Assembly (NCBI RefSeq): GCF_005144585.1
Contig: NZ_SSMQ01000011.1
Location: 62,001 to 126,000, forward strand
Length of the DNA stretch: 64,000 nt
Source of the DNA: Polyangium fumosum
Lineage (GTDB): Bacteria; Myxococcota_A; Polyangia; Polyangiales; Polyangiaceae
Reading direction: 5' to 3'
Below are positions 30,971 to 35,864 of this stretch, one piece after another. The notes beneath the pieces were generated by a model, which had not been told where the DNA came from, did no database searches, and saw only the letters and a program-made list of their open reading frames with translations. Every line of letters begins with the position of its first letter. The first letter of the stretch is position 1. Both the position numbers and the translations under genes were made by a program.

Positions 30971-31564
30971 ATGGCGCAGCTCTTGACGCGGACGGCCAGG
31001 CGGGCCAGGGCGGTCGCGCTCGGCGCGGCCCTCGGGGCGCTCGTGTCCGGGTGCGGGGCTGCGGGCGTTCAGGGGGACCCGAACGTCGTCGCGCATCCCC
31101 GTTGGCTCGGGCATGACCGGGAGCTCTTTGACGACGTCGTTGATGCAGGCGCCCTCGGCCTCGGCGCGGACGTCTCGAATGCGCAGAAGGATCCGCTCTT
31201 GAAAGAGCGGGCGCGCGGCTCGGAGCTCGTCTCGCGGGTGCGGGTGAGCACGGTGACGGTCGAGTCGCTCGACCAGGTCCGCACCTACCGCCTCGTCCTC
31301 CAGGTCATCCCGCCGGCTTTTGGCACGCCGGCGTTCGAACAGACGGCCTTCGAGCTCGTCATTGGGCCCGCCGCCCCGTCCTACGGGGTCGCGCAGGCGT
31401 TCGACATGCGCCTTCGTGGCGCGTCGTTCATCGGCTTTCTCCATCGCTTTGCGGGCGAGGGAGACGAGCCGAGCAGGCTTCACTGGCATCTGTCGCCGGA
31501 CACCGCCGAGGTGGCGGCTGCCGTGACGGATGCCCTCGCCCTCGCGGAGCTGTCCGGATCGTGA
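30971..31564 (+). CDS. Lipoprotein of unknown function, upstream of map
   Basis: 197 residues from ATG 30971. The signal peptide (ARRARAVALGAALGALVSGC) has a lipobox with Cys at about residue 28. The mature domain of about 165 residues begins GDPNVVAHPRWLGHDRELFDDVVDAGALGLG and contains several beta strands (VRVSTVTVESLDQVRTYRLVLQVI). I recognise no family. It overlaps the methionine aminopeptidase gene by 4 bases (GTGA), so the pair is transcribed together from the TGCTA promoter. The longer start at GTG 30953 cannot be excluded. Confidence 0.75.
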   Translation: MAQLLTRTARRARAVALGAALGALVSGCGAAGVQGDPNVVAHPRWLGHDRELFDDVVDAGALGLGADVSNAQKDPLLKERARGSELVSRVRVSTVTVESLDQVRTYRLVLQVIPPAFGTPAFEQTAFELVIGPAAPSYGVAQAFDMRLRGASFIGFLHRFAGEGDEPSRLHWHLSPDTAEVAAAVTDALALAELSGS

Positions 31565-32382
31565 GCAACGTCAGCATCAAAACGTTGAAGGAAGTCGAAG
31601 GGATGCGGGCCGCGTGCCAGATGGCCGCGGAGACGCTGCTCGACGTCGGGGAGATGATCCGCCCGGGGATCTCCACCGAGGACATCAACCGCTTCGTCCA
31701 CGACGACACGGTTCGGCGGGGCGGTTGGCCCGCGCCGCTGAACTACCACGGCTTCCCGAAGAGCGTGTGCACGTCGGTGAACGAGGTCGTCTGCCATGGC
31801 ATCCCGGGGCCGCGGGTCCTCGAGCCGGGCGACATCATCAACGTCGACGTGACCACGATCTACAACGGGTTTTACGGCGACACGTCGGCGACCTTCTACG
31901 TGGGCAAACCCTCGTCCGCGGCCAAGCACGTGACCGAGGTCTCGCGACGCTCGCTCGATCTCGCGATCGCGCAGGTGCGCGAGGGCGCGCGGCTCGGGGA
32001 CATCGGCGCGGCGATCCAGGAGTTCGCCGAGGGCGAGGGCTGCTCGGTGGTGCGCGCGTTCGTCGGGCACGGCATCGGCCGGGTGTTCCACGAGGCGCCG
32101 CAGGTCTCGCACGTCGGCAAGCGCGGGACGGGGATGCGCTTGCGTGCTGGGATGTGCTTCACGATCGAGCCGATGATCAACCTCGGCCACCACGACGTGG
32201 AGGTCCTCGCGGACAAGTGGACGGCTGTCACCGCGGATGGCTCGCTCTCCGCGCAGTTCGAGCACACGCTGGTCGTGACGAAGAACGGCTGCGAGGTGTT
32301 GACGCGCCGGAGCAGGAAGCTCTCGAACAGCGAGATCTTCGGGGATGTGTTTTCGGTCGCCGCCGCGGCCACGACGCGCTAA
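31561..32382 (+). CDS. map: Methionine aminopeptidase, type I
   Basis: 273 residues, GTG start overlapping the upstream lipoprotein by 4 bases. It removes the N-terminal methionine from nascent proteins. The pita-bread metal site is complete: the two Asp of INVDVTTIYNGFYGDTS, the His of VGHGIGRVFHE, the Glu of FTIEPMI and the final Glu in AQFEHT. NYHGFPKSVCTSVNEVVCHGIP is the type I signature region. There is no SH3 or zinc-finger N-terminal extension. The last 35 residues are an unusual small tail. It lies 15 bases upstream of the ThyX-like gene. Confidence 0.96.
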   Translation: MSNVSIKTLKEVEGMRAACQMAAETLLDVGEMIRPGISTEDINRFVHDDTVRRGGWPAPLNYHGFPKSVCTSVNEVVCHGIPGPRVLEPGDIINVDVTTIYNGFYGDTSATFYVGKPSSAAKHVTEVSRRSLDLAIAQVREGARLGDIGAAIQEFAEGEGCSVVRAFVGHGIGRVFHEAPQVSHVGKRGTGMRLRAGMCFTIEPMINLGHHDVEVLADKWTAVTADGSLSAQFEHTLVVTKNGCEVLTRRSRKLSNSEIFGDVFSVAAAATTR

Positions 32383-32397
32383 CGGACCACGGGTCCC

Positions 32398-33924
32398 ATG
32401 CCCCTCGACGAAGCTGCGCGCGGCCGGATCGCGCCGTACGTCTCCAGTCTGAGCGACGACGTCTTCGCCCTCTCGGGTTTGCCCGAGGAGGTGATCGCCG
32501 TCCTCTTCGCCTATTATTCGCGCAGTCGCGACGATCTGCGGACGAACCTGGCGCGCTTGCTCACCGACCAGGAGCTCGACGTCGGGGAAGGCGTGACGAC
32601 GCGCCCCTCGTTCGGGCTCGCGACGGAGAAGGCGCGCGCGTTCCACGAAAAATGGGTCGTCGGCTACGGGCACGCGTCGGTCGCGGAGCACGCGGTCGTG
32701 CACCTCGCGATCGAGAACGTGAGCATCGTGGCCTCGAAGGTGATCGAGGATCTCCGGCTCGGCTCGTACACCGAGAAGAGCACGCGTTACGTCGTCTTTG
32801 ATCGGAACAGCTTCGTCGACCTGCCCGAGCTCGAAGGCCCGCTCGGGCAGACGTACCGGGCCAGCGCGGAGCGGCTCTTCACGACGTACGTCGACCTCAT
32901 GGCGCGCGTGATGGATGCGCTTCGCGTGCGCGTGCTCCGGCCGCCGGGCGCGTCGGAGGCGGCGCATGCGGCGGCGATCCGCGCGCATGCTTGTGATCTT
33001 CTGCGCGGGCTCTTGCCGGCCGGCACGCGGACGAACCTCGGCCTCACCGCGAACGCGCGCGCGCTCGAGGCGCTGCTCACGAAGATGCTCTCGCATCCGC
33101 TCGCGGAGGTCCGCAACGTCGCGACGTCCATGCACGCGGCTGCGCGTACCGTCACGCCGACCCTCGTCAAGTACGCGGGGCGGAGCGAGCATCGGTCTGC
33201 CCAGCGCAGCGACGTGGGGGACAAGCTGCGGTCGATCTACGATCCTGGCCCCTGGGACGCGAGCGCGACGAACGTCGTTGGGCAGCCGGTGCGGCTCGTG
33301 CGTCACGACAAGGACGCGCTTGAGCGGATCGTGCTCGCGCTCGCGTACGAGAGCAGCGAGCCGAATGTGCATGCGCGGGGGCTCACGGAGGCGATGCGGC
33401 ATTCGACGTCGCGCGAGCTCGAAGACGTCGTTCGTGCGTCGGTCGCGCGGCGTGGCGCGCACGATCCCGTGCCGCGTGGCTTCGAGGCGACGACGATGAC
33501 GTTCGAGTTGATGCTCGATTACGGCGCCTACCGCGATCTGCAGCGGCACCGCATGCTCCTGCCGGCGACGCAGCGGCTCACGTGCCGGCTCGGCTTCGAG
33601 ACGCCCGCGGAGCTCGCGGAGCTCGAGCTCGATCGGGCTTACACCGACGCGATGGTCGCGGCGTGCGACGCGTGGGAGGCGCTCGAGAGCAAACACCCGC
33701 AGGAAGCGCAGTACGCGGTGCCGCTCGGCTTCCGCATCCGCACGCTCTGGACGCTCAACCTGCGCGAGCTTTTCCACGTGGTCGAGCTGCGGTCGGCGCG
33801 GCAGGGGCATGCGAGCTACCGGCGCATCGCGCAGGGGCTCTTCCGCACGGCGATCGCGGTGCACCCCTGGCTCGAAGGCCTCGTCCGCGTCGATCTCGGC
33901 GACTACTCGCTATCCCGCGCCTGA
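32398..33924 (+). CDS. Double-domain ThyX-like protein (flavin-dependent thymidylate synthase family)
   Basis: 508 residues, about twice a normal ThyX (220-260). Both halves have the fold's landmark pattern. First half: GHASVAEH (91-98), then S-Y-T-E-K-STRY (123-131), where the signature RHR-x7-S-x-R is reduced to D118-L-R120 but keeps S128-x-R130. Second half: RGAHDPVPRGFEATTMTFE and the motif RHR (383-385), after which the expected S and R are R393 and T395. The two halves thus keep complementary parts of the signature. ThyX makes dTMP from dUMP with FAD, NADPH and methylene-tetrahydrofolate; whether this protein does so is open. Start ATG 32398; a GCTAACGG element lies about 12-19 bases upstream. 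Confidence 0.82.
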   Translation: MPLDEAARGRIAPYVSSLSDDVFALSGLPEEVIAVLFAYYSRSRDDLRTNLARLLTDQELDVGEGVTTRPSFGLATEKARAFHEKWVVGYGHASVAEHAVVHLAIENVSIVASKVIEDLRLGSYTEKSTRYVVFDRNSFVDLPELEGPLGQTYRASAERLFTTYVDLMARVMDALRVRVLRPPGASEAAHAAAIRAHACDLLRGLLPAGTRTNLGLTANARALEALLTKMLSHPLAEVRNVATSMHAAARTVTPTLVKYAGRSEHRSAQRSDVGDKLRSIYDPGPWDASATNVVGQPVRLVRHDKDALERIVLALAYESSEPNVHARGLTEAMRHSTSRELEDVVRASVARRGAHDPVPRGFEATTMTFELMLDYGAYRDLQRHRMLLPATQRLTCRLGFETPAELAELELDRAYTDAMVAACDAWEALESKHPQEAQYAVPLGFRIRTLWTLNLRELFHVVELRSARQGHASYRRIAQGLFRTAIAVHPWLEGLVRVDLGDYSLSRA

Positions 33925-34112: not shown

Positions 34113-35864
34113 TCAGGAAGCGCGCCCCTTCGCGCCGCGCTTTGGGCTCGCGACGACGGCCGCTGAGCGTGCCTTCGCCTCGTCCAGCATCTCGGAGGCT
34201 GCCTTCAGCGCGCTCGGGCCGACCTTCGCGCCTGCCAGCATGCGCGCGACTTCGGCGACTCGATCCTTGCCCTCGACGCGCTTGACCGTGCTCTTCGTGA
34301 TCGGCCCGTCGACCTGCTTCGACACCACGAAATGTGCGTCTGCGAAGGCTGCGATCGTGGCGAGGTGCGTGATGCAGAGGACCTGGTGGTGGCGCGCTAC
34401 GTCTGCGATTGCGCGGCCGATCTTGTCCGCGACCACGCCACCGACGCCGGCGTCGACCTCGTCGAACACGTAGAGCCCTGCCGGCCCTGACTCTGCGAGC
34501 GTGCGCTTGAGCGCGAGCAACGCGCGTGAGAGCTCGCCGCCCGAGGCGATCTTGCGCAGCGGACGCGGCTCGATGCCTTTGTTGGGCGCGATGAGGAACT
34601 CGACGCGGTCGATACCGTCGCGGCCGAGCCGTGCGCCGTCGACGACGAGCTCGGACCTCTCGCCCGAGAGCGGTGCGACGTCCACGATCACGCGCGCGCC
34701 GCCCATGCCGAGATCGGCGAGCTCTCCGCCGATCGACGCGCCGAGCTTCTCGCCGGCTTCGCGGCGTTTTTGTGAGAGCTGCCGCGCGCGATCTCCTGCC
34801 ACGCGCAGCAGCCGATCGCGCTCGTGCTCGAGCGCTTCGAGCTTCGTCTCCACGTTGCCGAGCCCTTCGAGCTCCGTCGCGATACGCGATCGCGCCGCGA
34901 TCACGTCGTCGATCGTGGGCCCGTGTTGCCGCAGGAGACCTTCGAGCCGGTACATGCGGTCCTCGATCTCCGAGAGCCGCGACGGGTTTGCCTCGGCGCG
35001 CTCGGCGTATCGATCGACCTCGCGGGCGATCTCTCGAAGCTCGGAGAACAAACCATCGAGCGTGTTCGCCGTGGCTTCGAGGGAGGGATCGAGATCTGCG
35101 GCGGCGCGTAGATCCTTCGAGAGCTTCGCGAGCTCGTCGCAGATTGCGTGCTCGCCTTGATCGAGCCGCGCGGCCGCGTGCTCGGTCAGCTCGCGGAGCC
35201 GGCCGGCGTGGCGGAGCCTCTGGCGCTCGGCTGCGAGCTCTTCGAGTTCGCCGGGCTGCGGGGACACGGTGTCGATGCCCTGGAGCTGGAAGCCGAGGAA
35301 CGCTTCGCGCTCGACGCGGCCGCGCTCGGCCTCGCGCACCTCGCGGATCTCAGCGACGACCTTTTCGAGCTTCTCGACCTCTGCGGCGAGCGCTTCGCGT
35401 GTGGTCGAGAGACGGCCGAAACGATCGAGGTACCCGAGGTGTGTCGAGGGATCGGTCAGCGCGACGCTCTCGTGTTGCGAGGCGACGTCGCAGAGCTCCG
35501 ACGCGAGCGCTTGCAGCTCGCCCGCGGTGCAGAGACGCCCGTTCAGGTACGCGCGCGAGCGGCCGTTTTGCTGCACCACGCGGCGGATGACGAGCTCGCC
35601 GCCGGAGGACACGCCGGCGGCGTCGAGGGCCGTCGCGAGCTGCTCGCTGCCCGTCACGTCGAAGAGCGCCTCGACCTCGGCCTCGTCGGCGCCGGGCCGC
35701 ACCTGTTCGGCGTTGCCGCGGCCGCCGAGCACGAGCGAGAGCGCGCCGACGACGATCGACTTGCCTGCGCCGGTCTCGCCGGTGAGCACGTTGAAGCCGG
35801 GCTCGAGGCGCAGCTCGAGCGAATCCATGAGGACGAAGTTCTTGACGCGGAGGGCGACCAGCAC
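34113..35864 (-). CDS. recN: DNA repair protein RecN
   Basis: 583 residues, SMC-like ATPase that acts at double-strand breaks. The N-terminus MLVALRVKNFVLMDSLEL leads into Walker A GETGAGKS (about 29-36). Coiled-coil arms (about 150-370) flank the middle, and the C-terminal head has the ABC signature ASGGELSRALLALK, Walker B LYVFDEVDAGVGG and the H-loop VLCITHLATIAAFAD. All are typical of RecN. It is the last gene of a minus-strand group, 55 bases after the AgmX-type protein gene. Its 3' end faces the ThyX-like gene, with the hairpin-arm element between. Confidence 0.96.
   Translation of the reverse strand: MLVALRVKNFVLMDSLELRLEPGFNVLTGETGAGKSIVVGALSLVLGGRGNAEQVRPGADEAEVEALFDVTGSEQLATALDAAGVSSGGELVIRRVVQQNGRSRAYLNGRLCTAGELQALASELCDVASQHESVALTDPSTHLGYLDRFGRLSTTREALAAEVEKLEKVVAEIREVREAERGRVEREAFLGFQLQGIDTVSPQPGELEELAAERQRLRHAGRLRELTEHAAARLDQGEHAICDELAKLSKDLRAAADLDPSLEATANTLDGLFSELREIAREVDRYAERAEANPSRLSEIEDRMYRLEGLLRQHGPTIDDVIAARSRIATELEGLGNVETKLEALEHERDRLLRVAGDRARQLSQKRREAGEKLGASIGGELADLGMGGARVIVDVAPLSGERSELVVDGARLGRDGIDRVEFLIAPNKGIEPRPLRKIASGGELSRALLALKRTLAESGPAGLYVFDEVDAGVGGVVADKIGRAIADVARHHQVLCITHLATIAAFADAHFVVSKQVDGPITKSTVKRVEGKDRVAEVARMLAGAKVGPSALKAASEMLDEAKARSAAVVASPKRGAKGRAS

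Follow-up and report, generated by a model that had tools for sequence, protein, structure and literature searches.

A fused two-domain ThyX of Polyangium fumosum, a probable thymidylate synthase with active-site residues divided between its domains along the subunit boundary

A single open reading frame in a 64,000-nucleotide stretch of the Polyangium fumosum genome (the window) encodes two fused ThyX-like domains, and the contiguous signature RHR-x7-S-x-R is present in neither of them. How could such a protein act as a thymidylate synthase, and where would its active sites be? The frame starts with ATG, has no internal stops and encodes 508 aa (Table 1). Pfam Thy1 (PF02511) matches the protein in two stretches with 165.7 bits (cut-off 24.8), TIGR02170 (thyX) scores 89.2 bits, barely above its cut-off of 87.9, and a search of the genome with the Thy1 profile gives one match in each half of the frame (C22:94548-95162 and C22:95292-95870). 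A 794-aa frame on the minus strand (31480-33864), antisense to the gene, was considered as a gene and is most likely an artefact of high GC content.

The preliminary description of this locus held that the signature is split, domain 1 having lost R-H (D118-L-R120) while keeping S128-x-R130, and domain 2 having RHR at 383-385 without the S and R (R393 and T395 instead). The translation agrees with all of these assignments, such that domain 1 reads DLR-x7-S-T-R and domain 2 reads RHR-x7-R-L-T. The split is nonetheless wider than first described. Using the residue numbers of Thermotoga maritima (Tm) ThyX, it also involves the equivalents of R174, E86, Y91, R147 and S/T55: domain 1 lacks R78, H79 and R174 and keeps S/T55, E86, S88, R90, Y91 and R147, whereas domain 2 keeps R78, H79, R80 and R174 and lacks S/T55, E86, S88, R90, Y91 and R147, having T391, C396, Q438 and R360 in place of E86, Y91, R147 and S/T55 respectively. 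Every residue contacting dUMP and FAD is thus present jointly across the two domains, with each role complete within one of them. The equivalents of R80, N163 and R165 are kept in both. Positions were equated by alignment, by matching secondary-structure blocks in a predicted model (helix 110-116 ahead of D118 and helix 375-381 ahead of R383; strands 210-219 and 445-454), and by profile alignment with Mycobacterium tuberculosis (Mtb) ThyX.

Table 1. Features of the tandem thyX locus, in positions of the window; fractions and percentages refer to 102 tandem proteins.
Feature	Position	Strand	Evidence or conservation
Upstream neighbour, M24 metallopeptidase, probable methionine aminopeptidase	31561..32382	+	Pfam Peptidase_M24, 185.9 bits
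Tandem (two-domain) ThyX, 508 aa	32398..33924	+	ORF, translation, Pfam Thy1, TIGR02170
Domain 1, ~aa 20-262	32455..33183	+	Thy1 match; predicted separate ThyX-like alpha/beta domain
S94 (Mtb S71, Tm S/T55 equivalent; FAD phosphate, subunit B role)	32677..32679	+	S/T in 102/102
D118-L119-R120, degenerate RHR, domain 1	32749..32757	+	R78 equivalent 0/102, H79 7%
E126-K-S128-T-R130-Y131, intact substrate-recognition half (Tm E86, S88, R90, Y91)	32773..32790	+	Conserved in the 102 (see text)
R203 (Tm R147), domain 1	33004..33006	+	Invariant, 102/102
M230, replacing Tm R174, domain 1	33085..33087	+	R in 0/102
Domain 2, ~aa 296-500	33283..33897	+	Thy1 match; model aligns with T. maritima ThyX
R360, conserved Arg replacing FAD-phosphate Ser/Thr, domain 2	33475..33477	+	R in 93/102
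R383-H384-R385, intact RHR, domain 2	33544..33552	+	R383, H384 102/102; R385 97%
R393-L-T395, degenerate S-x-R, domain 2	33574..33582	+	S393 1%, R395 3%
R465 (Tm R174, dUMP activation), domain 2	33790..33792	+	Invariant, 102/102
Downstream neighbour, probable RecN	34113..35864	-	Pfam SMC_N (RecF/RecN/SMC), 70.5 bits

These losses can be compared with the known architecture of ThyX, a homotetramer with active sites where three subunits join (PMC6514825). At each site of the M. tuberculosis enzyme, subunit A provides RHR and R199, subunit B provides S71 and R190, and subunit C provides S105, R107 and Y108 (PMC6514825). Similarly, an inhibitor complex of PBCV-1 ThyX involves S88 of monomer B and R182 of monomer A (PMC3498832), and the site of PolB is formed by R86 and R193 (matched to Tm R174 by position) of one monomer and E94', S96', R98' and R166' of its neighbour (PMC5003785). 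Residue by residue, domain 2 corresponds exactly to the subunit A set and domain 1 exactly to the B and C sets; this division of the retained residues along a known subunit boundary supports a composite active site.

We examined 102 tandem proteins: 96 full-length sequences plus six additional named proteins of phages and plasmids. They come from Myxococcota, Chloroflexi, Armatimonadota, CPR bacteria and DPANN archaea, and from plasmids and jumbo phages. A broad genome search gave at least 575 confirmed relatives, of which 80 were kept; among the matches listed are Polyangium, Sorangium, Minicystis, Methylomirabilota, Armatimonadota, Chloroflexi, Zixibacteria, CPR bacteria and DPANN archaea, and further tandem relatives came from the same phylum, viral contigs, phages and plasmids. 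The complementary split is present in all 102 proteins, down to about 26% identity. Frequencies of the canonical residue in domains 1 and 2 are, respectively, 0 and 1.00 for R78, 0.07 and 1.00 for H79, and 0 and 1.00 for R174, and conversely 1.00 and 0.02 for S/T55, 0.97 and 0.01 for E86, 1.00 and 0.01 for S88, 1.00 and 0.03 for R90, 0.99 and 0 for Y91, and 1.00 and 0 for R147, the position of Q438 never being arginine. Ten residues are invariant (G91, S128, R130, R203, P207, P254, R383, H384, Y439 and R465), six of them catalytic, three per domain. As a control, all 12 single-domain ThyX proteins from the same phylum have the whole RHR-x7-S-x-R in one chain. The split, present in every tandem protein examined and in none of these controls, is not a matter of chance, although the common ancestry of the 102 sequences means that it represents one or few events rather than 102. 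Both domains are under purifying selection, with dN/dS of 0.06-0.38 between myxobacterial species.

Several relatives have peculiarities of their own. The lid tyrosine Y131 (equivalent to Y91) is replaced by proline in L008, the sole loss among the 102; its genome, G003, alone among the tandem genomes has a full-length thyA, and the substitution perhaps reflects relaxed constraint. Two Patescibacteria loci (L071 and L084) have in-frame TGA codons in the tandem thyX and adjoining ORFs. One of these TGA codons lies at the W86 column, which is W in 80 of 96 tandem ThyX proteins and G in none, and across seven ORFs TGA is used 21 times and TGG twice, a pattern suggesting that TGA is read as Trp and not as Gly as in other Patescibacteria. 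In L124, a single-domain ThyX from the window organism's family (genome G102), and likewise in genome G071, the protein is interrupted directly after RHRTA; the in-frame insertion in L124 starts with CLAGD and ends with VHN, after which the sequence continues SVNEYSGR. The insertion in the signature motif is probably an intein. In the jumbo phage Tunturi_5 the tandem thyX comes after a gene for dCMP deaminase, an enzyme that makes dUMP.

An AlphaFold2 model of the 508-aa chain, built with 79 sequences (pLDDT 92.1, pTM 0.91), predicts two well-folded domains whose relative placement is confident. Model residues 293-502 superimpose on T. maritima ThyX with a Z of 16.1 and an rmsd of 2.5 A over 192 residues; for domain 1 the evidence for a ThyX fold consists of the profile match and the predicted secondary structure. 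Among the best matches in the viral library is the tandem ThyX of the Microcystis phage LMM01. A sequence search of the PDB found no tandem ThyX, all matched chains being single-domain and 216-270 aa long.

If the tandem protein is a functional synthase, is another available to the cell? We searched the genome by family (12.98 Mb in 201 contigs, 100% complete) and found neither thyA nor, using the Thy1 profile, a second thyX besides the tandem gene. The family search found no folA either, and the genome fits the thyX-positive, folA-negative pattern described for organisms that use ThyX (PMC1971073). The tandem ThyX takes the place of thyA in this genome. The same relationship is seen across a sample of 112 genomes of the phylum: tandem ThyX is present in 38, of which 35 have no thyA match of any kind and 37 lack a full-length thyA, and full-length thyA is present in 39 of the 74 genomes without tandem ThyX. 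This anticorrelation has a Fisher p of 1.8e-8 with related genomes counted as independent. Besides the full-length thyA of G003, the tandem genomes with a match are G005 and G079, where it is partial (43-48 bits). Weak partial matches of this kind (G005:C242:19279-19659, G057:C173 and G079:C319; 43-94 bits, in ORFs of 500-613 aa) are possibly distant thyA-like enzymes.

We consider it highly likely that the 508-aa protein serves the organism as its de novo thymidylate synthase, with composite sites formed from complementary domains; very probably no other enzyme of the cell makes the DNA letter T. The preliminary description had left a choice between a fused pair forming a composite site and another function in nucleotide metabolism. 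The split along the subunit boundary, the lack of thyA or another thyX, and the scarcity of thyA in tandem genomes together support the former and make the latter unlikely. The former is further favoured by the purifying selection on both domains, by the confident model with its ThyX-like domain 2, by the coincidence of Y131 loss and full-length thyA in G003, and by the dCMP deaminase gene ahead of the tandem gene in Tunturi_5. It is quite improbable, for example, that the protein is a different enzyme of this fold, such as a PolB-like UMP/dUMP methylase or hydroxymethylase, or a flavin-binding regulator; the fold can accept UMP, as it does in PolB (PMC5003785), and the interrupted signature would be consistent with a changed function, but the protein is the sole ThyA/ThyX candidate in a complete genome, the great majority of tandem genomes have no thyA, and the dUMP and FAD contacts are all kept, only shared out. 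This genome logic also favours dUMP as the substrate over a PolB-type activity on UMP. Alternatively, dTMP could come from an unrecognised synthase or from salvage by thymidine kinase, making the tandem protein dispensable. A thymidine kinase is indeed encoded in the genome, and 8 of the 112 phylum genomes have neither family detected, but this explanation is very improbable given that the split residues are invariant over many phyla and that selection preserves both domains; salvage would moreover need external thymidine, presumably an unreliable supply for a soil bacterium. Scarcely credible is a pairing of like domains with like, each building its own sites from other residues and the split being incidental degeneration, since, even with R80, N163 and R165 equivalents retained in each domain, sites made of domain 2 would be without S88, R90, Y91 and R147, those made of domain 1 would be without R78, H79 and R174, and T. 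maritima ThyX is strongly slowed by S88A, R90A or Y91A (PMC8316439).

Returning to a synthase with composite sites, we infer its catalytic activity, quaternary structure and stoichiometry as follows. Using FAD, methylene-THF and NAD(P)H, the tandem ThyX would convert dUMP to dTMP. The gene would descend from an ancient duplication and fusion, after which each copy retained the residues that one subunit role contributes to the active site and lost those of the other. Domain 2 is proposed to act as subunit A, binding FAD through RHR and activating dUMP through R465, and domain 1 is proposed both to hold and cap dUMP as subunit C (E126, S128, R130, Y131 and R203) and to contact the FAD phosphate as subunit B (S94 and R221). 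By analogy with the normal site, which uses three subunits, a live site should require domain 2 together with domain 1 and the domain 1' of a second chain. Two chains would form a pseudo-222 tetramer with domain 2 opposite domain 2' across the A-D axis: under 222 symmetry with A as domain 2, B and C are the two copies of domain 1 and D is the other domain 2, and each live site would draw on both chains, since the axes of B and C differ. The tetramer would then contain two complete sites, each made of domain 2, domain 1 and domain 1', plus two dead sites, so that each 508-aa chain would account for one live site and bind one FAD.

The dead sites would not be wholly stripped, since both domains keep equivalents of R80, N163 and R165. 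Residues conserved only at the dead sites include D/E at 118 (80/102), R360 (93/102) and the invariant Y439. We think it rather unlikely that these sites have acquired a new use, for instance as a salt-bridge core with a structural role or as an allosteric pocket; in that case D/E118, R360 and Y439 would occupy or exploit the FAD position, and CPR bacteria, DPANN archaea and many other phyla would share a regulated ThyX that is obligately asymmetric.

In a tree of the separate domains, the domain 1 copies all fall together (98/95). Those of domain 2 do so only when type C is left out, and there are long-branch warnings. Type C is a divergent tandem ThyX (L017 in G045, L018 in G079 and L020 in G067) that has the same split, and its domain 2 falls outside the other domain 2s. 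One origin for all tandem types was considered, but the domain 2 grouping fails once type C is included. For the main tandem types, type C excepted, it is likely that one old duplication preceded the main radiation.

If this interpretation is right, the protein is a half-dead ThyX with subunit roles frozen into separate domains, so that a single role, or the FAD or dUMP half of the site, could be mutated independently, which a homotetramer forbids, and its one site per chain would help mechanistic studies of an enzyme that is a drug target. It would also explain why motif-based annotation may score either domain as broken, and would mark an old duplication common to many uncultured lineages.

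Databases already name tandem proteins FAD-dependent thymidylate synthase. Griffin and colleagues reportedly found in 2005 that a Chlamydia trachomatis ThyX of about 529 aa is active as a thymidylate synthase; its catalytic serine is said to lie in the C-terminal half (S465), and its motif may thus not be split as in the tandem ThyX. Complementary loss by subunit role, and an enzyme with two of four sites, were found nowhere in the open-access literature searched, in which tandem, fused or double ThyX appears only in Valas and Bourne 2009 (PMC3224940). Their Chloroflexi ThyX 'with a domain duplication' was noted for the duplication alone and described there as uncharacterised, the active-site split being absent from that account; it probably has the same architecture, and Chloroflexi tandem relatives (L100 and L103) are among those found here. 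PolB, a UMP/dUMP methylase (4p5a/4p5b), shares with the tandem ThyX the fold and a nucleotide site formed by two monomers, but is a single-domain homotetramer with the whole motif in each chain and acts in antibiotic biosynthesis. Classical ThyX (T. maritima TM0449 and M. tuberculosis ThyX) has the same fold, the same contact residues when summed over both domains, and a genome context without thyA and folA in common with the tandem form. It differs in having one domain with all roles, whereas the tandem ThyX has two fused domains with one set of subunit roles each, and in having four live sites per four domains where the tandem ThyX is expected to have two.
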